Below the pieces are notes generated by a model that was not told the origin of the DNA, made no database searches, and worked only from the letters and a program-made list of their open reading frames with translations. A stretch of DNA of 64,000 nt from an uncultured Shimia sp. (GTDB taxonomy: Bacteria; Pseudomonadota; Alphaproteobacteria; Rhodobacterales; Rhodobacteraceae), in NCBI RefSeq assembly GCF_947493595.1, contig NZ_CANLRL010000005.1, positions 62,001 to 126,000 on the forward strand. The letters run 5' to 3'. The number at the start of each line of letters is the position of its first letter. The first letter of the stretch is position 1. The translations under genes and the position numbers were made by a program. Below, piece after piece: positions 3,111 to 25,421 of the stretch.

Positions 3111-4598
3111 ATGACATTTTTCACGTCAAAGCTAGCCAGTGCCAGCGCCGCTGCTCTGATTGCCGGGACACTGACAGCCCAAGCTGCACAAACCGACATC
3201 ACGGTTGCCATGCAGTTGGAACCACCGCATCTGGACCCAACTTCGGCCGCCGCCGGGGCCATCGACAGCGTCCTGTACTCCAACGTTTTTGAGGGTCTGA
3301 CCCGCTTTGCCTCTGACGGCTCTGTCACACCGGGCCTCGCCAAAAGCTGGGACATCTCGGAAGACGGGCTGACCTACACCTTCATGCTGAACGACGGTGT
3401 GACCTTCCATGACGGCTCTGCCATGGACGGCGAAGACGTGAAGTTCTCGCTGGATCGCGCCCGCGCAGAAGACAGCGCCAATGCGCAAAAAGCCCTCTTC
3501 GAAGGTATTGCAGACGTCACCGTGGTAGATCCACTGACTGTGAAAGTCACGCTCGATGGCCCGAACGGCGACTTCCTGTTCAACATGGCATGGGGCGACG
3601 CCGTGATTGTCGCGTCTGAAAGCATAGCGGACATCAAAACCACGCCTATCGGCACCGGTGCCTTCAAATTTGGCAACTGGGTGCAAGGCGACAAGATCAC
3701 GCTCACACGCAACGATGCGTATTGGGGCACGCCTGCCACGCTGACCGATGTGACCTTCAAGTTTATCTCCGACCCAACCGCAGCCATGTCTGCCATGATG
3801 GCCGAAGACATTGATGTGTTTGCCGGTTTCCCAACGCCTGAGGCACTACCGCAGTTCGAAGCAGACCCGCGCTTTCAGGTTCTGGTGGGCAACTCCGAAG
3901 GCGAGACCATCCTGTCGACCAACAACAAGATGCCACCATTGGATGACGTGAAAGTACGCAAGGCCATCGCCCACGCAATTGACCGTCAGGCGATCATTGA
4001 TGGCGCGATGTTTGGCCTTGGCACCCCAATTGGCACCCATTTTGCGCCACATCACCCGGACTATGTCGATCTGACCGGCAACTCGGCTTATGATCCTGAA
4101 CTGTCCAAGAAACTGCTCGCCGAAGCAGGTTATCCGGACGGCTTCACCACCACGTTGAAACTGCCTCCGCCCTCTTACGCCCGTCGCGGCGGCGAAATCA
4201 TCGCCGCGCAACTGCGCGCTGTCGGCATCAATACCGAAATCTCCAACTTGGAGTGGGCGCAGTGGCTGGAACAGGTGTTCCGCGGCAAGGACTTTGGCCT
4301 GACCATCGTCAGCCACACCGAACCCAATGACATCGGCATTTACGCCCGTCCGGATTACTACTTCCAGTATGACAATCCGCAGTTCCAGCAGATCATGGAC
4401 ACCTTGAACAAAGCCACCATCCCGGCAGAACGCACCGCCCTGCGCAAAGTGGCCCAGACCATGATCGCCGAGGACTATGTCAACGGCTACCTGTTCCAAC
4501 TGGCCTACCCAACTGTGGCCAAAGCCGGTGTGCAGGGCCTCTGGCTCAACGCCCCAACCCAAGCGACTGACCTGACCGCCGTGAGCTGGTCAGAATAA
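3111..4598 (+). CDS. ABC transporter substrate-binding protein (SBP family 5, DppA/OppA type)
   Basis: A 495-residue periplasmic binding protein. A Sec signal peptide is visible (about residues 1-25, ending LTAQAA). The family-5 pattern follows: the LEPPHLDPT opening, NVFEGLTRF, LAKSWDISEDGLTYTFML, the VKFSLDRA region, and GTGAFKFGNW. The ribosome site AAGGGAGAGAG precedes the ATG. Family-5 proteins bind peptides, opines, glycosides or other small molecules, so the ligand is open. It is followed by an intercistronic hairpin (4612-4632) and then by the cupin, two permeases and a fused ATPase. Confidence 0.93.
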   Translation: MTFFTSKLASASAAALIAGTLTAQAAQTDITVAMQLEPPHLDPTSAAAGAIDSVLYSNVFEGLTRFASDGSVTPGLAKSWDISEDGLTYTFMLNDGVTFHDGSAMDGEDVKFSLDRARAEDSANAQKALFEGIADVTVVDPLTVKVTLDGPNGDFLFNMAWGDAVIVASESIADIKTTPIGTGAFKFGNWVQGDKITLTRNDAYWGTPATLTDVTFKFISDPTAAMSAMMAEDIDVFAGFPTPEALPQFEADPRFQVLVGNSEGETILSTNNKMPPLDDVKVRKAIAHAIDRQAIIDGAMFGLGTPIGTHFAPHHPDYVDLTGNSAYDPELSKKLLAEAGYPDGFTTTLKLPPPSYARRGGEIIAAQLRAVGINTEISNLEWAQWLEQVFRGKDFGLTIVSHTEPNDIGIYARPDYYFQYDNPQFQQIMDTLNKATIPAERTALRKVAQTMIAEDYVNGYLFQLAYPTVAKAGVQGLWLNAPTQATDLTAVSWSE

Positions 4599-10954: not shown

Positions 10955-11539
10955 GTGACCGCCACGCTCACCATCCTGATTGTCGAACCCGACAAAACCC
11001 GTGCCGATGCGATCATCGACAGCCTTGTCGCCACCGGTTATCACCACATTCGGGTGCTCTCAAACTTCACGGGCCTTGCCAGTTCTGTAGTAGAGCTGAA
11101 CCCTGATCTGGTCCTGGTCGACATCACCAATCCAAACCGCAACGACATTAACGCGCTCACGCGGGCTGTTGCGCCGCTGGATCGACCGGTTGCCCTGTTT
11201 GTCGACCGCTCCGACGACGGCCTCTCCAAAGCTGCCATTGAAGCCGGTATCTCAGCTTACGTGGTCGACGGCATGCACCCAGATCGGATCAAACCGATCC
11301 TTGAGGCCGCCATCACCCGCTTTCACTTAGTTTCGGGCATTCGCAGCGAATTGGCCGAAACCAAACGTGCCCTCGAAGATCGTAAAATCATCGAACGTGC
11401 AAAAGGCATCTTAATGCAGGCGCGTAACATCCCGGAAGATGAGGCTTATGCCTTGCTGCGCAAAACCGCGATGCACGAAGGCAAGAAAATGGCACGCGTG
11501 GCACAGGCTTTGGTCACCGCGTCTGACCTCCTGTCCTGA
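10955..11539 (+). CDS. nasT: NasT-type ANTAR-domain response regulator (transcription antiterminator)
   Basis: A 194-residue RNA-binding regulator. The N-terminal receiver-like domain (about 1-125) has [13 protein letters not shown] and a conserved Asp56 in VLVDIT. The C-terminal ANTAR domain (about 130-190) shows the typical [19 protein letters not shown], then [19 protein letters not shown]. In known systems NasT binds a two-hairpin leader RNA and prevents termination when nitrate or nitrite is present, held in check by the sensor NasS. Such a leader lies directly downstream (11805-11912). No nasS is in the window. The start is GTG at 10955. It is followed by nrtA-nirBD-nasA, which supports the name. 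Confidence 0.9.
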
Positions 11540-11804
11540 CCACCCTGCCCGCGTCTCTCCCACCTCACATGTGGCAGACCTAAGTAAGGGCCGCCTTTCG
11601 TCACACGCGGTTCTTCACCCCTTCGATGCCCCTTGCACCTGCGCCCACATCAGACCTTTTCGGTTCATTTTTGAGCAGGAATGCGACTCTCCCCACCATA
11701 TTCGCCCAAAAATTGAGCAAGCAACCCGCGAATTGCGGCATCGCAGCATTTTCTCTCACATCCCGCTTGAGACTCGCACCAACGCCCTTCCTAATGACAT
11801 CAAC

Positions 11805-11845
11805 ACAGGACAACGACGTTCTGTTTTGACCCTGAACGACCAGGG
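11805..11845 (+). ncRNA. ANTAR-target leader RNA: two hairpins with identical AACGAC hexaloops
   Basis: Hairpin 1 (11805-11824) is ACAGGAC-AACGAC-GTTCTGT, a 7-bp stem with one G-T pair. Hairpin 2 (11830-11845) is CCCTG-AACGAC-CAGGG, a 5-bp stem. Five nt separate them. Both hexaloops have A at position 1 and G at position 4, the known recognition rule for ANTAR proteins. An intrinsic terminator follows 11 nt later. The element lies between nasT and nrtA, about 120 nt before the nrtA start. This is read directly from the sequence; binding by this NasT is inference. Confidence 0.88.
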
Positions 11846-11856
11846 ACATCTTGAGC

Positions 11857-11912
11857 AAAGCCGCTCGACCCCGCCGAACCTCCTCCTTCGGCGCTGGTCG
11901 CGCGGCTTTTTT
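11857..11912 (+). terminator. intrinsic terminator/attenuator in the nrtA leader
   Basis: AAAGCCGC pairs with GCGGCTTT (8 bp, outer stem), and inside it CGCCGAA pairs with TTCGGCG (7 bp) around an 8-nt loop. Six T residues end the element (11907-11912). It lies 51 nt before the nrtA start, downstream of the two ANTAR hairpins, so it is the likely point of NasT-controlled termination. Confidence 0.88.
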
Positions 11913-11963
11913 GTTTTCCTGCCCTCTCTTCCAATTCGGGGCACACCAAAAGGAACGCCACAA

Positions 11964-13328
11964 ATGCATCGTTTCGCCGCCCTTCTCGCTGCGACCACCG
12001 CTCTCGCCGCGCCAGCAGCAGCAGAGCTTGACCTTGAAAAAGATGAACTGACCTTTGGCTTCATCAAACTAACCGACATGGCGCCGCTCGCCGTGGCTTA
12101 TGAGCAAGGCTATTTTGATGACGAAGGCCTTTTCGTGACGCTCGAAGCACAAGCCAACTGGAAAGTGCTGCTGGACGGCGTGATCGACGGCCAGCTTGAT
12201 GGCGCTCATATGCTCGCAGGTCAGCCACTCGCCGCCACCATTGGCTACGGCACCGAAGCCCACATCATCACACCATTCTCCATGGATCTGAACGGCAACG
12301 GCATCACCGTCTCCAACCAGATCTGGGAAGAAATGAAGCCGCACGTTCCACTGATGGACGATGGGCGTCCACAACACCCGATCTCCGCCTCCGCGTTGAA
12401 GCCGGTTGTTGAGAAATACACCTCCGAAGGCAAGCCATTCAACATGGGCATGGTCTTCCCGGTCTCCACCCACAACTACGAACTGCGTTACTGGCTGGCC
12501 GCCGGTGGTCTGGAGCCAGGCTACTACTCCCCGGAAAACATCACCGGCCAGATTGGCGCGGATGTTCTGCTCTCCGTGACCCCACCGCCACAGATGCCAG
12601 CCACCATGGAAGCGGGCACAATCTACGGCTACTGCGTGGGTGAGCCTTGGAACCAGCAGGCCGTGTTCAAAGGCATCGGTGTGCCTGTGATCACCGACTA
12701 CGAACTCTGGAAAAACAACCCAGAGAAAGTCTTCGGTCTGAACGCCGAGTTTGCCGAGAAGTATCCAAACACCACCCTGGCCGTGACCAAGGCGCTGATC
12801 CGCGCAGCGATGTGGCTCGATGAAAACGACAACGCCAACCGCGAAGAAGCGGTGAGAATCCTTAGCCAGCCGGAATACGTGGGCGCGGATTACGACGTGA
12901 TCGCCAACTCCATGACCGGCACTTTTGAGTATGAAAAAGGCGACAAGCGTGAGGTTCCAGACTTCAACGTATTCTTCCGCTACAACGCGACCTACCCATT
13001 CTACTCCGACGCCGTCTGGTACCTGACCCAGATGCGCCGCTGGGGCCAGATCGCCGAGGCCAAGCCTGACAACTGGTATGACGAAGTCGCGAAGTCGGTC
13101 TACAAGCCTGCGATCTACCTCGAAGCAGCCCGCCTGCTGGTGGACGAAGGTCTGGCCAACGAAGCTGACTTCCCATGGGACAGCGACGGCTACAAAGCGC
13201 CAACCCCATCCGAGGACATCATCGACGGCATCGCCTACGACGGCCGCACTCCCAATGCCTACCTCGACAGCCTGCCAATCGGCCTGAAAGGCGACCAACG
13301 TGTCGTTGGCACTGAGGTGCAAGGCTAA
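11964..13328 (+). CDS. nrtA: nitrate/nitrite ABC transporter substrate-binding protein (NrtA/CmpA family)
   Basis: A 454-residue periplasmic binding protein for nitrate or nitrite. It has a Sec-type signal peptide ([20 protein letters not shown]). The NrtA-family core follows: [52 protein letters not shown] and [10 protein letters not shown]. The exported N terminus separates it from the related cytosolic sensor NasS. AAAGGA precedes the ATG. Its expression should depend on antitermination at 11805-11912. Two hairpins follow it before the permease gene. Confidence 0.94.
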
Positions 13329-13520: not shown

Positions 13521-14603
13521 ATGACCACAATCGACCCGCAAAACATCGCAGATGAAGAGCGCGAAGCCCGCCGCGCGCGCCTCTTCACCCGCATCAACAA
13601 GGCCGACACTTGGTTTCAGGTCCTCGGTCTCAGCTTCCTCACTCCAATTTTGAAAGCCGCCGCCGGCGACAATCCGAAAGCGCAAGCTGCTGAAATCTGG
13701 CGACTTTTGGGCGTGCCACTCTTGGCCATCGCCATCTTCCTGATGCTCTGGGGCAACCTCGCGCCCAAAGTGCAAACCTCCCTTGGTGCCGTTCCGGGCC
13801 CGAAAGAGGTCTGGACCGAAGCCGTGCTTCTCCACGAAGACGCCCAAGCCAAGGCCGCCAAAGAAGCGAAGTTCAACGAACGAGTAGAGGCCCGCAACGC
13901 CAAGTTCATCGCCAATGGCCAGCCGGAAAAAGTCAAAGATATCAAATACACAGGCAGCCCCAGCTACTACAATCAGATCTGGACTTCGATCAAAACCGTG
14001 TTCTTTGGCTTCCTGATCGGCACCGCAATTGCTGTCCCAATTGGCATCATGGCCGGCCTGTCTCCTTACGCCAACGCCGCCGTAAACCCGCTGATCCAGA
14101 TCTTCAAACCAGTCTCCCCACTGGCATGGCTGCCAATTGTAACCATGGTGGTCTCCGCCACCTACACCGTCGATGACGGCTTGTTCTCCAAGTCCTTCCT
14201 AACCTCGGCGATCACCGTAACTCTTTGTTCTCTTTGGCCAACTTTGATCAACACCGCGCTCGGCGTGGCCTCTATCGACAAAGATCTGGTGAACGTCTCC
14301 AAGGTTCTGAAGATGAACACCTGGACCAAAATCACCAAGCTGGTGCTGCCATCTGCCCTGCCGCTCATCTTCACCGGCCTGCGTCTGAGCCTCGGTGTCG
14401 GCTGGATGGTTCTGATTGCGGCTGAAATGCTGGCGCAAAACCCGGGCTTGGGCAAATTTGTCTGGGACGAGTTCCAAAACGGTTCTTCAAGCTCCCTCGC
14501 CAAGATCATGGTCGCCGTCTTCACCATCGGCATCATCGGCTTCCTGCTCGACCGTCTGATGTACGCCATCCAGTCCCTCTTCACCTTCTCCTCTAACCGG
14601 TGA
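13521..14603 (+). CDS. nrtB: nitrate ABC transporter permease (NrtB type)
   Basis: A 360-residue inner-membrane permease. The N-terminal 65 residues are an amphipathic, charged region. A first membrane segment (LLGVPLLAIAIFLMLWGNLA) is followed by a cytoplasmic or periplasmic stretch rich in Lys and Glu, then a five-helix permease core with FFGFLIGTAIAVPIGIMAGL, FKPVSPLAWLPIVTMVVSAT, a coupling loop at MNTWTKITKLVLPSALP, and GLRLSLGVGWMVLIAAEML. This order is typical of NrtB/SsuC-type permeases. It overlaps the nrtCD region by its stop codon only (ATG 6 bp downstream). Confidence 0.93.
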   Translation: MTTIDPQNIADEEREARRARLFTRINKADTWFQVLGLSFLTPILKAAAGDNPKAQAAEIWRLLGVPLLAIAIFLMLWGNLAPKVQTSLGAVPGPKEVWTEAVLLHEDAQAKAAKEAKFNERVEARNAKFIANGQPEKVKDIKYTGSPSYYNQIWTSIKTVFFGFLIGTAIAVPIGIMAGLSPYANAAVNPLIQIFKPVSPLAWLPIVTMVVSATYTVDDGLFSKSFLTSAITVTLCSLWPTLINTALGVASIDKDLVNVSKVLKMNTWTKITKLVLPSALPLIFTGLRLSLGVGWMVLIAAEMLAQNPGLGKFVWDEFQNGSSSSLAKIMVAVFTIGIIGFLLDRLMYAIQSLFTFSSNR

Positions 14604-14608
14604 TCGCC

Positions 14609-16288
14609 ATGAGTGTTCTGAAATTTAACAATGTCTCCAAGAGCTTTGGCGAAGGCACAGCCAAGACCGACGTTCTTAAAAACATCAACCTTGAGGTTCA
14701 GGAGGGCGAGTTCCTCGTTCTTCTGGGCTTCTCCGGTTCCGGAAAAACCAGATTGATCAACCTGATGGCGGGCCTCGAATTGCCCACCTCTGGCAGTGTG
14801 ACTTTCAAGGGCGAGAAGATCACCCAACCCGGCCCAGAGCGCGGCGTGATCTTCCAATCCTACTCGCTGATGCCTTGGCTGACGGTGAACGGCAACGTGC
14901 GCCTTGCGTTGGATAGCGTGTTCCCCAACATGCCCAAAGCCGAAAAAGAAGAGCGCGTTGACCATTACATCAAGATGGTCGGCCTGTCCCACGCTGCCAC
15001 CCGTCGTCCAGCCGAGTTGTCCGGCGGCATGCGCCAGCGCGTGAACGTGGCCCGCGCCTTGGCGATGAACCCCGAAGTTTTGCTTCTGGATGAACCGCTT
15101 AGCGCATTGGACGCCTTGACCCGCGCCAATCTAGCCGATGAAATCGAGGCGATCTGGGATGCGGAGAGAAAGACCTGCGTTCTGATTACCAACGACGTAG
15201 ACGAAGCGATCATCCTCGCCGACCGCATCATCGCGCTGAACCCCGATGGCACTTTGGGCCAGGAGTTCAAAGTCGACATCCCACGTCGTAGGGACCGTAT
15301 GGAGATGAACCACCACGAGGGTTTCAAAAAACTGCGTGCGCAAGTCACTAAGTATCTGATGGACGTGGGCATTGCGGCCAAGGCGGAAGGCAAAAAAGTG
15401 CTGCCCGACGTCACCCCGATCCACGGCGTCCCGGCCGCTGTCAAAGATGCTCAGAAGGGCATGATCGACCATAATTTCTTGGACTTTTCGCAACTGCACA
15501 AGATCTACCCAACGCCCAAAGGTCCGCTCACAGTGGTCGAAGACTTCGACCTAAAAGTGCAGCGCGGCGAGTTCATTTCTCTTATCGGCCACTCCGGCTG
15601 CGGCAAGTCCACGGTGCTCACCATGGCAGCAGGCCTCAACCCGATCTCCAAAGGCGGTATCCGTCTGGACGGTCGCCACGTCGAGGGCGCCGACCCTGAA
15701 CGGGCTGTGGTGTTCCAATCACCTAACCTGTTCCCGTGGCTGTCTGCCAAGGAAAACGTGGCGATTGGCGTGGACAAAGTCTACCCCAAAGCCAGCCAAG
15801 GCGAACGTCAGGACGTCGTGGAATACTACCTCGAGCGTGTTGGTCTTGCCGACGCTATGGACCGCCCGGCGCACTCCATGTCCAACGGCATGAAGCAGCG
15901 TGTCGGCATCGCCCGCGCCTTCGCTCTGTCCCCGAAACTTCTGCTTTTGGATGAACCCTTTGGTATGCTCGACAGCCTGACACGCTGGGAGCTGCAAGAG
16001 GTGCTCATGGAAGTCTGGGACCGCACCAAAGTGACCGCGATTTGTGTGACCCACGATGTAGACGAAGCCATTCTGTTGGCCGACCGTGTTGTCATGATGA
16101 CCAACGGTCCACAAGCGACCATCGGCAAAATTGTGGACGTCGACCTGCCACGTCCGCGCACACGCAAAGCCCTGCTCGAGCACCCCGACTATTACCGCTA
16201 TCGCCAAGATGTGCTCGATTTCCTTGAGGAATACGAACATGGCGCCAAGCCCAAACCAAAGCCATCCAAAGCCATCGCGGCGGAGTAA
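14609..16288 (+). CDS. nrtC: nitrate ABC transporter ATP-binding protein with two ATPase domains
   Basis: A 559-residue protein with tandem nucleotide-binding domains. Domain 1 (about 1-250) has Walker A GFSGSGKT, signature LSGGMRQR and LLLLDEPLSALD. Domain 2 (about 295-545) has GHSGCGKST, LLLLDEPFGMLD and a changed signature MSNGMKQR in place of LSGGxxQR. In cyanobacterial nitrate transporters NrtC and NrtD are separate, and NrtC carries a binding-protein-like C-terminal domain instead. Here both ATPases are one chain and no binding domain is present. The ATG at 14609 is preferred to the GTG at 14600, which overlaps the nrtB stop. Confidence 0.92.
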   Translation: MSVLKFNNVSKSFGEGTAKTDVLKNINLEVQEGEFLVLLGFSGSGKTRLINLMAGLELPTSGSVTFKGEKITQPGPERGVIFQSYSLMPWLTVNGNVRLALDSVFPNMPKAEKEERVDHYIKMVGLSHAATRRPAELSGGMRQRVNVARALAMNPEVLLLDEPLSALDALTRANLADEIEAIWDAERKTCVLITNDVDEAIILADRIIALNPDGTLGQEFKVDIPRRRDRMEMNHHEGFKKLRAQVTKYLMDVGIAAKAEGKKVLPDVTPIHGVPAAVKDAQKGMIDHNFLDFSQLHKIYPTPKGPLTVVEDFDLKVQRGEFISLIGHSGCGKSTVLTMAAGLNPISKGGIRLDGRHVEGADPERAVVFQSPNLFPWLSAKENVAIGVDKVYPKASQGERQDVVEYYLERVGLADAMDRPAHSMSNGMKQRVGIARAFALSPKLLLLDEPFGMLDSLTRWELQEVLMEVWDRTKVTAICVTHDVDEAILLADRVVMMTNGPQATIGKIVDVDLPRPRTRKALLEHPDYYRYRQDVLDFLEEYEHGAKPKPKPSKAIAAE

Positions 16289-16291
16289 GCT

Positions 16292-18736
16292 ATGACACAG
16301 AAACTCATCATCATTGGGGCCGGGATGGCCGCGGGCCGCGCGCTCGAACATCTCTTTGAAACAGCCCCCGACGCTTATGACGTCACCCTTTTCAACGCGG
16401 AGCCACACGGCACGTACAACCGGATCATGCTCTCCCCCGTCCTGTCGGGAGACAAGACGTTTGACGAAATTGTGACGCACACCGCCGAATGGTACGAAGA
16501 ACAAGGCGTCACCTGTCACTTTGGCGAAAAGGTCGTAAAAATCGATCGTGCCGCACAGACAGTGACGTCTGACAATGGCGGCGTGCTGGCCTATGACAAG
16601 CTCATCATTGCAACCGGATCCAACCCATTTATCGTCCCGCTGCCGGGCCATGATCTGGACGGCGTGATTGCTTATCGCGATCTCGAAGACACCAACACGA
16701 TGATTGCGCTTGGTGACAAACCAGATGCCAAAGCCGTGGTCATCGGCGGCGGTCTTCTGGGCCTTGAGGCGGCTGCCGGCCTCGCCCTGCGGGGTGTGGA
16801 CGTAACGGTCGTACACATCATGGGCCACCTGATGGAGCGCCAGCTCGACGAGGCTGCTGGCTACCTGCTCCGCAAGGCTCTTGTCGATAAAGGCATCACT
16901 GTGAAGTGCTCCGCCAATTCCAAAGAAATCCTTGGCGAGAATGGCAAAGTCAAAGCGCTTCTGCTGGATGACGGCACTGAGCTGCCATGTGATCTTCTGG
17001 TCATGGCCGTGGGTATCCGCCCATCGGTGGCGCTGGCGGCAGAGGCCGGTCTGGCAACCGGTCGCGGAATCCATGTCGATGACCAAATGGTCACTTCCGA
17101 CGCCAACATCCTGTCGCTGGGTGAATGCGTGGAGCACAACGGCGACATCTTCGGTCTTGTGGCGCCGATTTATGATCAAGCCAAAGTGATTGCCAAAACG
17201 CTAGCCGGCGAAGAAGCCGCCTTTGTGAACAAAGACGTGGCCACCAAGCTGAAAGTCACCGGCTGTGATCTGTTCTCCGCGGGCGATTTTGCCGAAGCTC
17301 AAGGCCGCGAAGACATTGTGTATCGCGACCCCGCGCAGGGCGTCTACAAACGCCTTGTTATCGAAGACAACCGCATCGTCGGCGCCGTCATGTACGGCGA
17401 CACGGCAGACGGCAACTGGTTCTTTGGCCTGATCAAAGACAAAGAGGACATCTCCGAGATGCGCGATACGCTCATCTTTGGCCCCGCCTTTCAAGGAGGG
17501 TCCCCCCTGGACCCTATGGCGGCCGTTGCAGCCTTACCGGCTGACGCAGAAATCTGTGGTTGCAACGGCGTATGCAAAGGTCAGATCGAGGACGCCATTG
17601 GCAACGGCGCCACAACGCTTGATGACATCAAGACAACCACCAAAGCCTCCGCATCTTGCGGGACGTGCACAGGTTTGGTGGAACAAGTTCTCGCGGCGAC
17701 ACTGGGCAATGACTTTGTCGTGCCTGCGGCAAAGTCAGTCTGTGGCTGCACGGATTTAACGCATGAAGACGTGCGACGCTTGATCAAGTCCAAGGAGCTG
17801 AAGTCGCAACCCGCTGTTTGGCAAGAACTTGGCTGGTCGACGCAAAATGGCTGTCACGTTTGCCGCCCCGCGATCAATTACTACCTTCTTGCCGACTGGC
17901 CTTTGGAGTATCAGGACGACGCGCAGAGCCGTTTCGTGAACGAGCGCAACCATGCCAACATCCAGAAAGACGGTACTTATTCCGTTGTGCCGCGCATGTG
18001 GGGCGGAATCACCACTCCGGATGAGTTACGTGCAATTGCAAACGCGGCAGACAAATTTGACGTACCAACGGTTAAAGTCACCGGAGGTCAGCGCATCGAT
18101 CTTTTGGGCGTAAAAAAGGAAGACCTGCCAGAGATTTGGTTCGATCTGAACCAAGCCGGTTTGGTTTCTGGCCATGCTTATTCCAAAGGCCTACGCACCG
18201 TCAAAACTTGCGTTGGCTCAGATCACTGCCGGTTTGGCACGCAGGACTCCACCGGCCTTGGTGTGAAACTCGAAAAACACCTTTGGGGCTCTTGGACGCC
18301 ACACAAGTTGAAACTCGGCGTCTCCGGCTGTCCGCGCAATTGCGCAGAGGCCACATGCAAGGACATTGGCGTGGTCTGTGTGGACTCCGGCTATGAAATT
18401 TCCATTGCCGGCGCGGCTGGTATGGAAGTCAAAGAAACCGAACATCTCTGCAAAGTCACAACCGAGGAAGAAGCCATCGAGGTGATCTCTGCCATGACGC
18501 AGGTCTATCGTGAGAATGCGAAATATCTCGATCGCATATGGAAATGGGTCGACAAGGTGGGGCTTGATTGGATCAAGGGCCAAGTTGTTGAAAACCTGGA
18601 GGCCCGCAAAGCCCTCGTCGCGCGTTTTGAGATTTCCCAAACCGTTTATCGATCCGACCCCTGGGCGGAACACGCATCGAAAAAGGCTGAGACCTACCAG
18701 CCGGTTGCCAAACTCACTTTGGAGGCAGCAGAATGA
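16292..18736 (+). CDS. nirB: NAD(P)H-nitrite reductase large subunit
   Basis: An 814-residue cytosolic enzyme that reduces nitrite to ammonium with NAD(P)H. Domains in order: FAD/NAD oxidoreductase (1-400; IIGAGMAAGRAL, then VVIGGGLLGLEAA), two BFD-like [2Fe-2S] segments (CGCNGVCKGQ with SCGTCTGLV; CGCTDLTHEDV with NGCHVCRP), a ferredoxin-like half-domain, and the siroheme/[4Fe-4S] domain with CVGSDHCRFG and SGCPRNCAEATC. The four cluster Cys are present. It starts 3 bp after nrtC and overlaps nirD by ATGA. Siroheme synthesis genes are not in the window. Confidence 0.96.
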   Translation: MTQKLIIIGAGMAAGRALEHLFETAPDAYDVTLFNAEPHGTYNRIMLSPVLSGDKTFDEIVTHTAEWYEEQGVTCHFGEKVVKIDRAAQTVTSDNGGVLAYDKLIIATGSNPFIVPLPGHDLDGVIAYRDLEDTNTMIALGDKPDAKAVVIGGGLLGLEAAAGLALRGVDVTVVHIMGHLMERQLDEAAGYLLRKALVDKGITVKCSANSKEILGENGKVKALLLDDGTELPCDLLVMAVGIRPSVALAAEAGLATGRGIHVDDQMVTSDANILSLGECVEHNGDIFGLVAPIYDQAKVIAKTLAGEEAAFVNKDVATKLKVTGCDLFSAGDFAEAQGREDIVYRDPAQGVYKRLVIEDNRIVGAVMYGDTADGNWFFGLIKDKEDISEMRDTLIFGPAFQGGSPLDPMAAVAALPADAEICGCNGVCKGQIEDAIGNGATTLDDIKTTTKASASCGTCTGLVEQVLAATLGNDFVVPAAKSVCGCTDLTHEDVRRLIKSKELKSQPAVWQELGWSTQNGCHVCRPAINYYLLADWPLEYQDDAQSRFVNERNHANIQKDGTYSVVPRMWGGITTPDELRAIANAADKFDVPTVKVTGGQRIDLLGVKKEDLPEIWFDLNQAGLVSGHAYSKGLRTVKTCVGSDHCRFGTQDSTGLGVKLEKHLWGSWTPHKLKLGVSGCPRNCAEATCKDIGVVCVDSGYEISIAGAAGMEVKETEHLCKVTTEEEAIEVISAMTQVYRENAKYLDRIWKWVDKVGLDWIKGQVVENLEARKALVARFEISQTVYRSDPWAEHASKKAETYQPVAKLTLEAAE

Positions 18737-19068
18737 ACTGGATTGATATCTGCTCTATCACCGATATTCCTCTGCGGGGTGCGCGGATTGTTAAAACCGC
18801 TGTGGGCTGTGTCGCCGTTTTCCGTACGGATGACAGCGAAGTGTTCGCCACTTCTGACCGGTGCCCTCACAAAGGCGGACCGCTGTCTGAGGGCATCGTG
18901 CACGGGAAAGCCGTCACCTGCCCGTTGCACAATTGGGTATTTTCACTGGAAACTGGAGAGGCCCAAGGTGCAGACGAGGGTCAGATCGCAACCTTTGCGA
19001 CCCAAATCGAAGACGGCCGCGTGATGCTTGACGTCACCGAGCTTACCCCAGGGGTGGCCGCAGAATGA
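18733..19068 (+). CDS. nirD: nitrite reductase small subunit (Rieske-type)
   Basis: A 111-residue partner of NirB with a Rieske [2Fe-2S]-like fold. The sequence keeps CPHKGGPLSEG and CPLHNW, so the Cys-x-His and Cys-x-x-His ligand pairs are present. Many NirD proteins lack these ligands, so this copy may bind a real cluster. It overlaps nirB and nasA by ATGA at both ends, so the three enzymes are translationally coupled. Confidence 0.94.
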   Translation: MNWIDICSITDIPLRGARIVKTAVGCVAVFRTDDSEVFATSDRCPHKGGPLSEGIVHGKAVTCPLHNWVFSLETGEAQGADEGQIATFATQIEDGRVMLDVTELTPGVAAE

Positions 19069-21695
19069 GCCAACAGCCCGTCTGCACCACTTGTCCCTAT
19101 TGCGGCACCGGCTGCGGCATCCTTGCCACGCCGGACAATACAGGCGGGCTGTCAATCCAAGGCGACCCCGATCACCCTGCCAACTTTGGCCGGCTCTGCT
19201 CCAAAGGGTCCGCACTTACAGAAACCATTGATCTTGAAGGCCGCCTGCTCGCTCCTTTGATCAACAAATGTGGTGCAACTTGGGATGACGCCCTCGACCT
19301 AGTGGCGGATAAGTTCCTCTCCACGATTGAAAAACACGGCCCAGACTCCGTCGCCTTTTATGTCTCAGGCCAATTGCTGACCGAGGACTACTACGTCGCG
19401 AACAAACTGATGAAAGGTTACATCGGTTCAGCCAACATCGACACCAACTCGCGTCTTTGCATGGCATCGACCGTGGCTGGACACAAACGGGCCTTTGGAA
19501 CAGATACCGTGCCTGGAACCTACGAAGACCTGGAGTTGGCAGACCTATTGATCATCACAGGCTCCAACCTGGCATGGTGTCACCCTGTGCTTTATCAGCG
19601 CATCGCGGCTGCAAAGTTAGAGCGCCCTTCGATGAAAGTGGTCGTGGTGGACCCCCGCCGCACGGCAACATGTGATCTGGCGGATCTGTATCTGCCTCTT
19701 AATCCAGGTACAGACGTTGCTCTGTTCAATTACCTGTTTTGTCAAACACACGCACAAGGTGCTTTAGACGTCGAGTTTGTCGCCAAACATACCAACGGCT
19801 TCACCGAAACTTTGGACGCGGCCAGGGCCTCAGATGTCGCCATCACAGGGTTAAGCAAACAGCAAGTCAATGCATTTGTGCGAATGTGGCTGACCACTGA
19901 AAAAACAGTCACTGTTTTCTCACAGGGCATCAATCAATCTGATCATGGCACGGATAAGGTAAACGCCATTATCAACTGCCATTTGGCCTCCGGGCGCATT
20001 GGAAAACCTGGGAGTGGTCCCTTTTCGGTAACCGGGCAGCCCAACGCGATGGGCGGACGAGAGGTGGGCGGCTTGGCCAATACCTTGGCCTGCCACTTGG
20101 ACCTAGAGGATCCAACGCACCGCGACACGGTGCAGTCATTCTGGCGGTCACCATCAGCGCCGTCGCGACAAGGTCTTAAAGCGGTGGACATGTTTGACGC
20201 AATTGGCGAGGGCAAAATCAAAGCACTGTGGGTGATGTGTACAAACCCGGCTGTAAGCATGCCTAACGCTACCAAAGTCCGTTCTGCGATCGCGAACTGC
20301 GAATTCGTCGTGGTCTCTGACATGTTCGCGACCACAGATACCGCGAGACTTGCAGACGTGGTGCTGCCAGCCACTGGCTGGGGAGAGAAGAATGGCACCG
20401 TCACCAATTCGGACCGAACAGTCAGTCGCCAACGGTCTGTTTTTTTGCCCCCCGGAACAGCGCGTCACGATTGGAACATCATATGTGACGTTGCCCAGCG
20501 GATGGGCTTCGGCGCAGGGTTTAATTTTTCCAATCCAGCTGAAATTTTTCGAGAACACGCGGCGCTGTCAGGTCTTGCTGCCAATCTAGGCAAAGACTTC
20601 GACATTTCCGGACTAGCGGATCTGTCCAACCAGGAGTATCAGAACTTAAAACCGGTCAGATGGCCTGTCAAAGAACCAAATGCCGTCAAGGATCCCAGAT
20701 TCTTCGCCAAGGGACACTTCTTCACCAACGAAGGTCGGGCCAACTTGGTCCCGATCAAGAATACGGGTCTCGCCTCTCAAAATGATGCGCTTCCATTGCG
20801 GCTCAATACCGGCAGGGTGCGCGACCAGTGGCACACGATGACCCGAACCGGACGTGCTACGCGCCTCAATCAACATTATGGTGAGCCCTTCTTAGAAATA
20901 CACCCTGAAGATGCCACCCAACTTGACGTCTCTGATGCAGATTTAGTTGAGGTCCAAAATGAAAATGGCACTGTCATTTTGAGAGCGTTATTAACCAACC
21001 GAGTGGCACGGGGGAGCGTATTTGCTCCGATCCACTGGTCCAATGAAGATGCGTCGCGCGCCGTTGTGTCAGATTTGGTGCCCGCAATTGTTGATCCGAT
21101 TTCAGGCCAACCCGACAGCAAGGCCGCTCATGTAAGTGTCACAAAATTCCGCGCGCAATGGTACGGGTATGCGGTAGGGACAAGTAAGTTGAGTGCCTCT
21201 ACAAAATATTGGGCGAAAACCAAGTTGACCACAGGCTGGCAGTTGGAACTGGCAGACGTCTCGCAACCTGAGAGCTGGGTAGATTATGCGTCCAAATTAT
21301 TTGAAGCAGACGACGCGCGATGCACCAGCTTGATTGATGCCACCAGAGGTCGGGCACGTTTGGCTTTTCATCGTGACGGAAAACTGATTGGCGCCTTGTT
21401 TGTTGATCGCACTCCGGTGCAAGTGTCTCGCTCTTTTGTCAGCGGGATGTTGGGACAAGATGCAACCCACATTTTGGCTGGGCAACCAGGTGACGAGCAG
21501 CTCGACCCTGGCTCAACAGTGTGCGCATGCTTCAACATTGGCGTGAACACGATCTTGTCCAACATTGAGCAACAGAACTTAACGTCCGTGGAGCAAATTG
21601 GAAACGCGCTCTCGGCAGGAACGAATTGCGGGTCTTGTCGGCCGGAGCTGGCTGCTCTGCTGTCAAATGCGCGGCGAGAAATGGCTGCAGAATAG
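19065..21695 (+). CDS. nasA: assimilatory nitrate reductase catalytic subunit
   Basis: An 876-residue molybdopterin (bis-MGD) enzyme of the DMSO-reductase family that reduces nitrate to nitrite. The N terminus holds a [4Fe-4S] site (CTTCPYCGTGCG, then GRLCSKG). Molybdopterin-binding stretches follow (TNSRLCMAS, VVVDPRRT, QPNAMGGREVGG, VMCTNPAVSMP). The C-terminal 60 residues are a BFD-like [2Fe-2S] domain (VCACFNIGVN, NCGSCRPEL). No signal peptide is seen, so it is cytosolic and assimilatory. No nasB/nasC reductase is adjacent. Base use is more A/T-rich than in nrtABC. The operon ends here without an obvious terminator. Confidence 0.95.
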   Translation: MSQQPVCTTCPYCGTGCGILATPDNTGGLSIQGDPDHPANFGRLCSKGSALTETIDLEGRLLAPLINKCGATWDDALDLVADKFLSTIEKHGPDSVAFYVSGQLLTEDYYVANKLMKGYIGSANIDTNSRLCMASTVAGHKRAFGTDTVPGTYEDLELADLLIITGSNLAWCHPVLYQRIAAAKLERPSMKVVVVDPRRTATCDLADLYLPLNPGTDVALFNYLFCQTHAQGALDVEFVAKHTNGFTETLDAARASDVAITGLSKQQVNAFVRMWLTTEKTVTVFSQGINQSDHGTDKVNAIINCHLASGRIGKPGSGPFSVTGQPNAMGGREVGGLANTLACHLDLEDPTHRDTVQSFWRSPSAPSRQGLKAVDMFDAIGEGKIKALWVMCTNPAVSMPNATKVRSAIANCEFVVVSDMFATTDTARLADVVLPATGWGEKNGTVTNSDRTVSRQRSVFLPPGTARHDWNIICDVAQRMGFGAGFNFSNPAEIFREHAALSGLAANLGKDFDISGLADLSNQEYQNLKPVRWPVKEPNAVKDPRFFAKGHFFTNEGRANLVPIKNTGLASQNDALPLRLNTGRVRDQWHTMTRTGRATRLNQHYGEPFLEIHPEDATQLDVSDADLVEVQNENGTVILRALLTNRVARGSVFAPIHWSNEDASRAVVSDLVPAIVDPISGQPDSKAAHVSVTKFRAQWYGYAVGTSKLSASTKYWAKTKLTTGWQLELADVSQPESWVDYASKLFEADDARCTSLIDATRGRARLAFHRDGKLIGALFVDRTPVQVSRSFVSGMLGQDATHILAGQPGDEQLDPGSTVCACFNIGVNTILSNIEQQNLTSVEQIGNALSAGTNCGSCRPELAALLSNARREMAAE

Positions 21696-22053
21696 CTTCC
21701 AAACCCGCGATGAGAATCCGTTCTTTTCAGGTCTTTCCTGTCAAATCACTCCTAGAAACTGCCGTAAGGTCATGCTCTCCCTCCCGCCACCCTGAGTAAT
21801 TACATACACTTAAGAGCTCCTCTATAACGGGAATATTTCAGTAGAAGCCGCCAATTTCCCACTTGCTCAAAAACGGCATGTTTGTCGGTTTTGAACCATG
21901 ATATGACGGTTTCCTGAAGGCACCGCATTGGCGACCTCTTTCGCACGCGGAGTCTACGAAAACTTTGTGGATTTTGGCACATTTTCCTTGATTTGTGCCG
22001 CGAGCGAACCGCAGCATAATGAAAAACAAAAGATTCAACATGGGAGTTTCCAA
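21696..22053. other. intergenic region without a gene
   Basis: A 358-bp A/T-richer gap between nasA and the next ABC operon. It probably holds the promoter for the operon from 22054, but no convincing sigma-70 pair, palindrome or terminator could be read. Only the ribosome site GGGAGT just before the ATG at 22054 is clear. Confidence 0.5.
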
Positions 22054-23637
22054 ATGAATGAAGAGCTTAAGTTCCTAAGTCGCCAAGCCGCTTTGGGTGC
22101 AATCACACGCCGTAAGTTCCTTGGCCGTGCCGGTGCACTTGGTCTTTCGGCTGCCGCGGCAAATACAATGCTCGCCGGCGCGGTACACGCTGAAGGCCCC
22201 CAGAAAGGTGGCACTCTGCGCATTGGTTTGCAGGGGGGATCCACCACCGACAGCCTGGATCCGGCAACAGCCGCAAACACAACCGCGGTAAACCTGATCC
22301 GCATGTGGGGGGAGCCGCTCGTTGAGTTGACCGATGATGGTGGCCTACAGGGCAAAGTTGCCGAGAGCTTTGAAGCCTCCGCGGATGCAACCACATGGAC
22401 TTTCACGATCCGCAAAGGCATCACCTTCTCCAATGGACAAGAAGTGACCGCAGCGGACGCGGCTGCAATGCTCGACCGTCACGCCGGTGAAGAATCAAAA
22501 TCTGGTGCTCTTGGCCTGCTGCGCGACATCAAAAACGTCAGCACCAACGGCCGCGATGTGATCATCGAGCTCAACAACGGCAATGCCGACTTGCCCTATT
22601 TGATGAGCGACTACCACCTGATCGTACAGCCAAACGGCGGTAAAGATGCGCCGGACGCGGCAATCGGCACCGGTCCCTATATCATGAAAGAAGTTGATAT
22701 GGGCGTACGCTTTGTGGCGGAGAAAAACCCGAATTACTGGGGTGATTTAGGCCACGCTGAGACCATCGAAATGCTGGTGATCAACGACAACACCGCACGC
22801 GTTGCAGCCCTGCAATCCGGTCAAGTGGACATCATCGACCGCGTGCCACCACGCACGGCAGGCCTCGTGGCCCGCGCGCCTGGTATCACTGTTGCGTCCA
22901 CAGCTGGCCCTGGCCACTACGTGTTTATTGCACACGTCAACACAGCTCCGTTTGACAACCCTGATCTGATGATGGCCCTGAAGTATGGCATCAACCGTCA
23001 GGAAATGGTCGACAAGATCCTGTTTGGTTACGGCTCTGTTGGCAATGACTCGCCAATCAATGCGGCCTACCCGATGTATTCGGAAATGGAGCAACGTGAG
23101 TACGATCCAGACAAAGCAGCCGAGTACTTCAAAAAATCTGGCCACGAAGGCCCGGTGCTTCTACGCACCTCTGACAACTCGTTCCCAGGTGCGCCGGACG
23201 CAGCCGCGCTTTTCCAGCAATCCCTGAAAGCTGCTGGTATCGACCTAGAAATCAAGCGTGAGCCGAACGATGGGTATTGGTCCGAAGTTTGGAACAACAA
23301 ACCCTTCTGCACCAGCTACTGGGGTGGTCGTTCAACACAGGACCAGATGTTCACCACTGCTTATCTGTCGACGGCGGATTGGAACGACACACGCTACAAG
23401 AGCGAAAGCTTTGATAAGCTTCTGATTGCGGCGCGTGCGGAACTCGATCAAGACAAGCGTAAAGCGATGTATGCCGACATGGGCATGATGGTACGCAATG
23501 AAAGCGGCCTGATCTGCCCAATGTTTAATGACTTCGTTGACGCCTACACCGACAAAATTGGTGGTTGGGTTGAAGGTGTTGCAGGCTTCTCCTTGATGAA
23601 CGGCTACGCGGCACAGCGTATGTGGGTGACAGGCTGA
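22054..23637 (+). CDS. ABC transporter substrate-binding protein (SBP family 5) with Tat signal
   Basis: A 527-residue periplasmic binding protein. The N terminus has a twin-arginine motif (RRKFLGRAG, about residues 20-28) and a hydrophobic stretch ending GAVHAE, so it is probably exported folded by Tat. The family-5 core follows: GGTLRIGLQGGS, SLDPATAAN, VAESFEASADATTWTFTIRK, GTGPYIMKEV. An in-frame start at 21928 would add 42 residues before the Tat motif; ATG 22054 has GGGAGT upstream and a normal signal. The ligand is unknown. The permease starts 1 nt after its stop, with no intercistronic hairpin, unlike the other three importers here. Confidence 0.92.
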   Translation: MNEELKFLSRQAALGAITRRKFLGRAGALGLSAAAANTMLAGAVHAEGPQKGGTLRIGLQGGSTTDSLDPATAANTTAVNLIRMWGEPLVELTDDGGLQGKVAESFEASADATTWTFTIRKGITFSNGQEVTAADAAAMLDRHAGEESKSGALGLLRDIKNVSTNGRDVIIELNNGNADLPYLMSDYHLIVQPNGGKDAPDAAIGTGPYIMKEVDMGVRFVAEKNPNYWGDLGHAETIEMLVINDNTARVAALQSGQVDIIDRVPPRTAGLVARAPGITVASTAGPGHYVFIAHVNTAPFDNPDLMMALKYGINRQEMVDKILFGYGSVGNDSPINAAYPMYSEMEQREYDPDKAAEYFKKSGHEGPVLLRTSDNSFPGAPDAAALFQQSLKAAGIDLEIKREPNDGYWSEVWNNKPFCTSYWGGRSTQDQMFTTAYLSTADWNDTRYKSESFDKLLIAARAELDQDKRKAMYADMGMMVRNESGLICPMFNDFVDAYTDKIGGWVEGVAGFSLMNGYAAQRMWVTG

Positions 23638-23638
23638 T

Positions 23639-24595
23639 ATGTCGCTCCTTTTGAAACTGTTGGCCCAGCGCATTGCGCTGGGCCTCCTCTTGCTCTTCCT
23701 CGTCTCAATCTTGATTTTTGCTGGTACCATCATTTTGCCAGGAGACGTGGCCCAACAAATTCTTGGACAATCCGCCACGCCAGAAGCGCTTGCCAACCTG
23801 CGCCGCGATCTCGGATTGAACGACCCGCCACTACAGCGCTACTTCAGTTGGTTGGGCGGCCTACTGCAAGGTGATCTGGGCACCTCCCTCACCAGCGGCA
23901 AAGACATTGCTGAATCAATCAGTAAACGTCTCGGAAACACCCTCTTCCTGGCCTTCTGGGCCGCGATCATCTCTGTGCCTCTTGCGATTCTGCTTGGTTT
24001 GATTGCCGTACGTTATCGCGAACGCTGGCCGGACAAACTGATCTCCGCGGTCACCCTGGCATCTATCTCTGTACCCGAGTTTCTCATCGCCTATGTCGCC
24101 ATCTTCTTTGTATCTGTGCGTCTGCGATGGGCCCCATCGGTGACCACAATCAACGACAGCATGAGCTTGGGTGAAAAACTACATACCATCTCATTGCCAA
24201 TCGCCGTGCTGACACTTGTTGTGCTGGCACACATGATGCGCATGACGCGCGCCGCAATCTTGAATGTCATGCAATCCGCCTACATCGAGACAGCCGAGCT
24301 CAAAGGGCTGCGTATGTTCACGATTATCTGGAAACATGCCTTCCCGAACTCGATTGCACCCGTTGTGAACGTGGTCATGCTAAACCTCGCCTATCTGGTG
24401 GTTGGTGTTGTGGTGATTGAAGTGGTCTTCACCTACCCTGGTATGGGACAGTTCTTGGTCGATCATGTGTCCAAGCGCGACATTCCCGTGGTACAAGCCT
24501 GCGGTCTTATTTTCGCCGCGGTTTACATCGGCCTCAACATGGTTGCTGACATTGTCTCGATCGTGGCCAACCCACGCCTTCGACATCCGAAATAG
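23639..24595 (+). CDS. ABC transporter permease (DppB/OppB type)
   Basis: A 318-residue inner-membrane permease. Visible features are the first helix LGLLLLFLVSILIFAGTIIL, the LGLNDPPLQRYFSWLGGLLQ region, GDLGTSLTSG, and the EAA-type loop at AYIETAELKGLRMFTIIWKH (about 215-235). The end has VVIEVVFTYPGMGQ. It is partner to the gene at 24606 and directly follows the Tat-exported binding protein. Confidence 0.93.
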   Translation: MSLLLKLLAQRIALGLLLLFLVSILIFAGTIILPGDVAQQILGQSATPEALANLRRDLGLNDPPLQRYFSWLGGLLQGDLGTSLTSGKDIAESISKRLGNTLFLAFWAAIISVPLAILLGLIAVRYRERWPDKLISAVTLASISVPEFLIAYVAIFFVSVRLRWAPSVTTINDSMSLGEKLHTISLPIAVLTLVVLAHMMRMTRAAILNVMQSAYIETAELKGLRMFTIIWKHAFPNSIAPVVNVVMLNLAYLVVGVVVIEVVFTYPGMGQFLVDHVSKRDIPVVQACGLIFAAVYIGLNMVADIVSIVANPRLRHPK

Positions 24596-24605
24596 GGGAA
24601 TTGTT

Positions 24606-25421
24606 ATGAGAATACCCATAGCTGCCCTCATCGGGCTTATTTTCACCGCTGCGTATTTCTTCGTGGCAATCTTTGCACCATGGATCGCGCCTTATGGCAT
24701 GGCCGAAGTGGTCAGCCGGGATGTCTGGCTGCCACCGTCCTCCGAGTTTCTGCTTGGCACTGACAATCTTGGACGCGATTTGCTGAGCCGGATGATATAC
24801 GGCGGACGAACAACCATTTTTATTGCTACCGCTGCTACAATCCTAAGCTTCACAACTGGGTCAGTGCTGGGTTTCCTTGCCGCCGTACTTGGCGGTTGGG
24901 CAGATCAGGCTATGAGCCGTTTTGTAGACCTAATCATGTCGATCCCATCTCTGATTTTTGCATTGGTTGTGTTGTCAGTCATGCCTGTGACTGTGCCTGT
25001 ATTGATCCTTGTGATGGGACTTTTGGACAGCACCCGCGTGTACCGTTTGGCGCGCGCCGTAGCCGTCGATATCAACGTCATGGACTACGTCGAGGCCGCA
25101 AAGCTGCGCGGTGAAGGGCGGGGCTGGATCATCTTCCGGGAAATCTTGCCAAATGCCTTGTCACCATTGATCGCAGAAATGGGTCTCCGGTTCATCTTTA
25201 TGGTTCTATTTGTCTCCACCCTGTCTTTCCTTGGCCTGGGGGTTCAACCGCCACAAGCAGACTGGGGCGGCATCGTAAAAGAGAACGCCGACGGTATTGT
25301 CTATGGCATTGGCGCGGCGTTGTACCCAGCAGTAGCAATCGCAACACTGGCGATCTCCGTGAACCTTGTGGCTGACTGGGTCCTGAACCGCACAACATCG
25401 CTGAAAGGAGGCCGCGGATGA
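24606..25421 (+). CDS. ABC transporter permease (DppC/OppC type)
   Basis: A 271-residue inner-membrane permease. It has an N-terminal helix (about 5-30), FLLGTDNLGRDLLSRMIYGG, the coupling loop VEAAKLRGEGRGWIIFREIL, and LSFLGLGVQPPQADWGGIV. The ATG at 24606 follows AGGGGAA; an earlier in-frame start at 24417 would run inside the upstream permease gene and was rejected. It overlaps the ATPase gene by ATGA. Confidence 0.93.
   Translation: MRIPIAALIGLIFTAAYFFVAIFAPWIAPYGMAEVVSRDVWLPPSSEFLLGTDNLGRDLLSRMIYGGRTTIFIATAATILSFTTGSVLGFLAAVLGGWADQAMSRFVDLIMSIPSLIFALVVLSVMPVTVPVLILVMGLLDSTRVYRLARAVAVDINVMDYVEAAKLRGEGRGWIIFREILPNALSPLIAEMGLRFIFMVLFVSTLSFLGLGVQPPQADWGGIVKENADGIVYGIGAALYPAVAIATLAISVNLVADWVLNRTTSLKGGRG

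Follow-up and report, generated by a model that had tools for sequence, protein, structure and literature searches.

The stretch between nasT and the nitrate operon is probably a NasT-dependent transcription attenuator, in which the last of three hairpins serves as the antiterminator, in a lineage that appears to have lost nasS, whose product, the nitrate sensor, otherwise keeps NasT in check. The element occupies positions 11805-11912 of the window, the 64,000-nucleotide stretch of DNA that was analysed, and it belongs to a known kind, the ANTAR leader. An original prediction from the sequence had proposed that the nitrate operon is preceded by an attenuator-containing leader of the ANTAR (NasT) type. 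This is well supported by how the region is built, by its conservation and by its association with NasT across genomes, but the predicted number of hairpins was not right. The features of the region are as follows.

10955-11539, forward strand: nasT, with an ANTAR domain (PF03861, 74.7 bits) and a receiver-like domain scoring 25.4 bits, below the cut-off.
11540-11707, no strand: spacer at the place of nasS in relatives; similarity to the relatives resumes at about 11708, just past their nasS.
11734-11748, no strand: GC-rich dyad, TGCGGCATCGCAGCA, conserved in an alignment of 17 genus sequences.
11767-11797, forward strand: putative promoter, TTGAGA (11767-11772), 19 nt and TAATGA (11792-11797).
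11805-11824, forward strand: hairpin P1, arms ACAGGAC and GTTCTGT, loop AACGAC at 11812-11817, C:G closing pair; the stem covaries in relatives.
11830-11845, forward strand: middle hairpin P2, arms CCCTG and CAGGG, loop AACGAC at 11835-11840, G:C closing pair; most relatives have a C-rich/G-rich counterpart.
11851-11868, forward strand: hairpin P3, the proposed antiterminator, arms TTGAGC and GCTCGA, loop AAAGCC at 11857-11862, C:G closing pair.
11857-11912, forward strand: intrinsic terminator, nested stem 11857-11909 and six T at 11907-11912, conserved and covarying in relatives.
11964-13328, forward strand: gene for an nrtA-like nitrate-binding protein (PF13379, 321.8 bits) with, by inspection, a signal-peptide-like start.
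13521-21695, forward strand: rest of the operon, encoding a permease, a two-domain nitrate ATPase, nirB, nirD and a putative nitrate reductase.

Within the operon, the NCBIfam models for the ATPase, nirB and nirD scored above their cut-offs and those for the permease and reductase below theirs. Upstream of the leader, the GC-rich dyad at 11734-11748 is a possible candidate for an activator site. The CTTG of the putative promoter is kept in all 17 aligned genus sequences; a simple sigma-70 scan reported no site at 11767-11797. If this is indeed the promoter, the predicted RNA start would be at about 11803-11806, the base of P1. The reading frames at 21928-27055, past the end of the nitrate operon, look on inspection like a peptide-type ABC transporter cluster with a binding protein, permeases and fused ATPases.

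Two hairpins with AACGAC hexaloops 5 nt apart, P1 and P2, were found as originally described, as was a nested terminator ending in six T. A scan for hexaloop hairpins with A at loop position 1 and G at position 4 (A1/G4) detected a further one, P3, which had been overlooked when the leader was called two-hairpin. P3 lies 5 nt beyond P2, and the gap between P1 and P3 is 26 nt (11825-11850). The 5' arm of the terminator starts with the loop and 3' arm of P3, so that the two structures have bases 11857-11868 in common, and both are conserved. The earlier inference that binding does not compete with the terminator, and that the mechanism may be a different one, is thus unsupported. How binding could block termination had been puzzling because the middle hairpin was mistaken for the last one. 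Since P3 overlaps the 5' arm of the terminator, antiterminator and terminator are mutually exclusive, just as the published ANTAR model for two hairpins has it. The dual-hairpin motif calls for at least two adjacent A1/G4 hexaloop hairpins, of which there are three at 11805-11868, and for a last hairpin that overlaps and excludes an intrinsic terminator, as P3 does. The proposed fit to the ANTAR recognition rule held only in part: A1 and G4 are present in both of the loops first noted, but P2 is closed by G:C and not by the C:G pair that closes the loops of P1 and P3 and that is reported as the SELEX consensus closing pair for NasR (PMC7496416).

Folding of 11780-11964, one of the checks proposed with the original prediction, gave -68.4 kcal/mol compared to a shuffled mean of -43.4 kcal/mol (z -6.55), and none of 200 shuffles was as stable. 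The match to an Rfam model that had been proposed as another check did not appear. No Rfam family reached its gathering score in the window, and at a relaxed threshold the search of 11500-12000 returned a single sRNA fragment at chance level (E 0.94). Across the 64-kb window, A1/G4 hexaloop hairpins with at least 5 Watson-Crick pairs number 11 on the forward and 12 on the reverse strand, and on both strands P1, P2 and P3 are the only ones within 15 nt of one another. In 20 first-order Markov resamplings of one strand, neither a pair nor a triple of such hairpins was produced. A census with a base-choice control, which replaced a greedy hairpin clustering that dropped overlapping hairpins, counted 151 A1/G4 hexaloop hairpins in 77 leaders (window included), while the 15 other choices of bases gave 4-24 each; the leaders are related by descent and the counts are not independent events. 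Chains of three hairpins occurred in 14 of these 77 related leaders with A1/G4 and in 0 with every other base choice; for chains of at least two the corresponding numbers were 21 and at most 1.

Folding of successive transcript ends indicated when one structure gives way to the other. P3 had its closing pair formed with a probability of at least 0.99 at every sampled end between 11866 and 11902; from 11906 on this probability was 0, the terminator having replaced P3. By stability alone, the terminator stands at -33.4 kcal/mol vs -6.2 kcal/mol for P3. As modelled, the switch between P3 and the terminator is a race that can be open to decision by an antiterminator protein.

Conservation was assessed on leaders of the family. 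Of 80 entries collected, 77 had a usable leader and three (L038, L076 and L093) lacked downstream sequence; P3 and the terminator were located by an automatic rule in 70 of the 77. Pooling the 77 leaders with 80 named loci gave 148 distinct leaders, 119 of them with P1 to P3 under a selection rule that required A1 and G4 and favoured C before the loop. Under this rule, which favoured C, the C:G closing pair of P1 and P3 was found in 119/119 chosen leaders. A loop distance of 44-51 was seen in 103 of the 119, and 86 were left after removal of near-duplicates. The alignment A2 contains 60 of these 86; the other 26 were omitted by hand once it was known which leaders had clear middle hairpins, and the A2 figures for G4, pairs and RNAalifold helices are biased towards the middle hairpin. 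The A1 and G4 of P1 and P3 were themselves selection criteria, and their invariance in A2 proves nothing. With this bias, the three hairpins were 89.3% paired over the 60 aligned leaders, and their covariation was 0.328 compared to 0.141 for shuffled and at most 0.122 for slid controls. The terminator was 92.6% paired, with covariation of 0.177 compared to 0.107 shuffled and at most 0.073 slid. Position 3 of the P3 loop covaries with its partner in the terminator (A-U in 44/60, G-C in 11/60). The structure is thus conserved in the relatives, with the middle helix the weaker part.

The original prediction had named nasT as the gene just upstream, and a Pfam scan confirmed this (10955-11539). 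NasT is also the sole ANTAR protein found, with one PF03861 match in the whole genome, and it is 47-96% identical to the NasT of 22 other genomes of the genus. By manual count on an alignment with EutV (6wsh), NasT residues R143, K144, E161, Y165 and M173 align with EutV R142, K143, E160, Y164 and M172, R148 replaces EutV K147, and the EutV segment N173/R175/R177 reads H174/G176/K178; the RNA-contact role of these EutV residues is that described in PMC8934654. A covariance model, R1, was built from the 60 leaders of A2. R1 matched 53 of 149 family genomes, all of them among the 61 with NasT (E 1e-20 or better) and none among the other 88, an association that is partly by construction as 31 rows plus the window (32/60) came from the searched family sample. 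Eight of the 61 NasT genomes in the family sample had no R1 leader match. In the class sample, R1 matched 7 of 289 genomes, two of them members of the genus, and a search of the window's own genome returned one clear leader (E 2.4e-11; next 0.154).

The location of the element downstream of nasT would also suit an ordinary nasT terminator with hairpins that arose by chance. The shuffles, the base-choice control, the covariation and the co-occurrence with NasT argue against this, and in relatives with nasS the same element is found after nasS and before nrtA. We regard an ordinary terminator as highly improbable.

In the NasT-dependent attenuator that we propose, three small hairpins would fold in turn on the emerging RNA, each presenting an A1/G4 loop. 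Without NasT, the far more stable terminator would overtake P3 and transcription would stop. By analogy to work on EutV, NasR and NasT, NasT on the loops would hold P3 and block the terminator, and the operon would be read. P1 would recruit NasT, and the middle hairpin would either hand NasT on or shorten the distance between P1 and P3. From the published work on these three proteins we infer both the protein binding and the read-through. Paracoccus denitrificans NasT is reported to bind its own leader RNA (PMC3795266), and in the published ANTAR logic it is the second hairpin that overlaps the terminator (PMC3369931).

An array of three hairpins, as in the window, is unusual, and most leaders of the family have one. 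The P1-P3 gap is 29-36 nt with a median of 34 nt in 60 leaders whose rows were pre-selected by loop distance, and the P2-P3 spacing is short, with a median of 5 nt in the 60 aligned leaders. The pattern YYC-N5-9-GGR lies between P1 and P3 in 103 of 119 stretches (200 shufflings: mean 27.3, maximum 38), and a clear middle stem is missing in 5 of 119 leaders. In the tests described for E. faecalis eut, the linkers are 5-12 nt and a linker of 14 nt drastically lowers induction (PMC3369931), and for EutV, 20 extra linker nucleotides are reported to abolish antitermination in vitro (PMC8934654). The canonical P1-P3 pair, about 34 nt apart, is therefore beyond the distance tolerated in the published linker tests. 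An actinobacterial survey allows linkers of 2-25 nt (PMC8164766), and linker limits may differ from protein to protein.

One explanation is that NasT lands on P1, passes to P2 and then to P3, with P2 as a true contact that bridges the long P1-P3 distance. G4 of the P2 loop is kept in 78 of 86 aligned leaders (58/60 in A2, which is biased towards it), and counting without an alignment gave 83 of 114. Position 1 of this loop drifts, being A in 67 and G in 28 of the 114. In the EutV-RNA structure as described, G4 makes a stacking contact and A1 makes no specific contact; the same paper argues against simultaneous binding of the two hairpins and suggests a linker-limited handover from recruitment to antitermination (PMC8934654). 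With G4 kept in the middle loop, and G4 being the stacking contact of EutV, the middle loop looks as if it is still touched by protein. The short P2-P3 spacing and the reported oligomers of about six of P. denitrificans NasT (PMC3795266) also favour such a passage. Against it stand the heptaloop of P2 in 55 of 114 leaders, the G:C closing pair of P2 in the window, the outer P2 pair, unpaired in 28 of 60 leaders, and the RNAalifold prediction on all 86 leaders, which gave P1 and P3 only and no middle helix; on the 60 hand-picked leaders it gave all three helices. The alternative is that P2 is a compact stem that folds away the linker and brings P1 and P3 close, its loop uncontacted. This agrees with the C:G closure of P1 and P3 in every chosen leader, under a rule favouring C, while loop size and closing pair of P2 vary, and with the narrow P1-P3 distance among leaders pre-selected by distance, but it leaves the retained G4 in P2 loops unexplained. 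We give the passage of NasT across P2 slightly less than an even chance, and find the folded linker somewhat doubtful. If NasT does pass from hairpin to hairpin, the switch would work over a span at which the two-hairpin version fails. It is still debated how an ANTAR dimer makes use of two hairpins, and a separated canonical pair with a G4-bearing hairpin between its members is a natural experiment on this question.

NasT was found in 23 of 25 genomes of the genus, and nasS follows nasT in 20 of these. It does not in three, the window genome, G157 and G169. A relative's NasS was searched against these three whole genomes and only the NrtA paralogue was found; the same search of two control congeners detected NasS at E 1.8e-148 or better. 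The window genome is 99.99% complete and G169 is a 93%-complete draft. A nasS remnant in the spacer of about 170 nt was considered and rejected, as no convincing similarity to NasS protein or DNA was seen. Among the matches listed, those of 18 genus NasS proteins to the intergenic regions of the three nasS-less genomes (tblastn) were no better than E 0.28, and in blastn the relatives' nasS-to-nrtA DNA aligned with the intergenic region from about its position 172 onwards and not before. Across the family, 47 of 59 loci have a NasS-size frame, or the beginning of one, that shares 4 bases with the end of nasT, and NasS was recognised by similarity in 55 of 59; of the remaining four, L050, L054 and L062 have a NasS-size frame and L093 stops at the contig end. 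Among the named loci, NasS was recognised in 79 of 80, and the other, L225, stops 578 nt past nasT.

The three nasS-less species have common changes in NasT: R43 to S, D63 to N or Q, and Q175 to E or D. In 71 other NasT proteins the residue is kept at position 43 in 68, at 63 in 71 and at 175 in 69. Since the changes at 43, 63 and 175 are common to the three species, a single loss of nasS in this lineage is the simplest reading of these sequences. It is speculation that E or D at position 175, within the RNA-contact segment, tempers RNA binding. Of the two proteins of the NasS-NasT system, NasT is present here, and NasS is not. Because NasS was looked for and not found, the window system is not classed as NasS-NasT two-component control; it works like the NasT half of it.

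In P. denitrificans, nasS mutants are described as constitutive, with expression without nitrate (PMC3795266, PMC5424462), and in Bradyrhizobium nasS deletion mutants nos transcription is reported to be nitrate-independent (PMC10620151). Given the loss of nasS here and constitutive nasS mutants elsewhere, read-through in the nasS-less lineage is predicted to be set by the amount of free NasT. Its independence from nitrate is likewise what we infer by analogy, and the leader probably reports free NasT rather than nitrate. The losses of nasS reported elsewhere (PMC3795266, PMC10620151) concern mutants or single strains; here the loss is common to three species. A lineage with regulator and leader but without sensor is a natural test of an antitermination switch that lacks its signal input, in a setting of marine bacteria that assimilate nitrate.

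It is nevertheless conceivable that the lineage still senses nitrate through another restrainer of NasT, such as the nrtA product or a different partner. NrtA is a paralogue of NasS (33% identity, NasS residues 6-315) whose gene directly follows the leader, and both NasT and the leader are still conserved. However, the signal-peptide-like start of NrtA should place it in the periplasm. The two other NMT1_2 matches are weak and are located in a GntR/ABC operon and a thiamine-type operon, the sole NIT-domain protein looks like a chemoreceptor, and no further candidate for an alternative nitrate sensor was found in searches of the window genome. We consider another restrainer unlikely. The NIT-domain protein (L304, 1348-3429), the only one of the window genome, resembles a methyl-accepting chemoreceptor and not a NasR-type regulator. 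It could also be that NasT has always been free since nasS was lost, so that the attenuator has lost its regulatory role and survives by inertia. The omega of nasT is indeed higher in nasS-less pairs (0.114, 0.172 and 0.178) than in five nasS-bearing pairs (0.013-0.076), among ten hand-chosen pairs. These values are far below 1, however, and between the window and L131, at a nasT synonymous divergence of 0.67, the stretch from P1 to the T-run is 96.3% identical compared to 65.7% for the spacer. Decay is, in our judgement, quite improbable. As read from these comparisons, purifying selection on nasT continues after the loss of nasS and is weaker. A lost NasS-binding face on the orphan NasT was considered as well and is unsupported. 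The changes are not concentrated in the receiver (window vs L131, pN 0.117 in the receiver and 0.110 in ANTAR), and the 4, 3 and 3 deviations at conserved positions of the orphan NasT proteins are within the range of 71 nasS-bearing ones (0-5, four at 5); the 15 closest genus members have 0-1.

Taken further, the nitrate leaders of the Rhodobacteraceae would be a three-step NasT relay across P2, and in the nasS-less lineage this relay would have been rewired to respond to how much NasT is free, NasT itself having acquired compensating changes, e.g. Q175 to E/D. We put this combined reading forward as possible but rather doubtful.

The attenuator reading with P3 as the antiterminator has counterparts among known systems. 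The ANTAR dual-hairpin leaders, those of EutV (eutP), NasR (nasF) and AmiR (amiE), are described with A1/G4 hexaloops before an intrinsic terminator, with a last hairpin that shares the 5' arm of the terminator and with the cognate ANTAR protein encoded nearby (PMC3369931), as in the window. The window and the family leaders differ from them by having three hairpins: one with G4 separates the two canonical ones, which in the family are about 34 nt apart. In the EutV handover model (PMC8934654), an upstream hairpin recruits and a downstream hairpin blocks the terminator, as proposed here. The EutV model involves a short linker and two steps, whereas with the layout of the window either a third step or folding of the linker would be required. 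In searches of the open-access literature, we found neither the three-hairpin family layout nor a nasS-less lineage; subscription papers on NasT leaders were outside this scope, which limits the claim to novelty.

Another close relative among described systems is the nasA leader of P. denitrificans, from the same bacterial family and before a NasT-controlled nitrate operon; it is reported to be bound by NasT and to contain hairpins HI and HII (PMC3795266, PMC5424462). There, nasS is present and nasA comes first, whereas in the window nasS is missing and nrtA comes first, and the hairpin layout differs. The P. denitrificans reports mention 'a series of regulatory hairpins', the data not being shown there (PMC3795266, PMC5424462). 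When HI was placed by its published position (-137 to -101) on the leader of P. denitrificans DSM 413 (L205), it spanned the second hairpin and a portion of the third, leaving P1 upstream; the placement is indirect, the published strain being PD1222 and the record DSM 413. In this same leader, no terminator-overlapping P3 was found by the hairpin rules used. The layout of Paracoccus leaders (L205 and others, for example L194, L200 and L210) is different from that of the family.

A class sample of 240 contained 33 NasT genomes, 31 of them outside the genus. Of these, 28 were examined, one with both of its NasT copies, and together with G412, which was added for its R1 match, they gave 30 loci outside the family. 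An array with a terminator was found in 10 of the 30 and none in 20. The loop-to-loop distance is 18-26 in L277, L282, L284, L293 and L302 and 41-62 in L278, L279, L281, L283 and L295; an earlier scan with other settings had placed L246 at 22, which the later scan did not recover. L277, L293 and L302 combine a close pair (loop-to-loop 19-26) with an extra A1/G4 hairpin further upstream. Outside the family, additional hairpins may thus have appeared, or have been retained, in a wider range of leaders.

A second copy of the leader was observed elsewhere in three family genomes, G071, G088 and G092 (L305 from about 799, L306 from about 732, and L307 at 4343-4436 on the minus strand); these copies are absent from the R1 training rows. 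Each stands directly before a gene with a TP_methylase domain, two of which also have a CysG dimerisation domain, as in the siroheme synthase type. Siroheme is described as the cofactor of NirB-type nitrite reductase (PMC12830290). Judged by their sequences, the copies before siroheme-synthase-type genes would form a small NasT regulon in those three genomes, of a kind not seen in the window genome. P1, C-rich middle and P3 elements are recognisable in the sequences of all three copies. When folded in isolation, L305 and L307 form hairpins at all three positions (P3, and P2 in L307, in a tetraloop register), and P1 is missing from the minimum-energy fold of L306.
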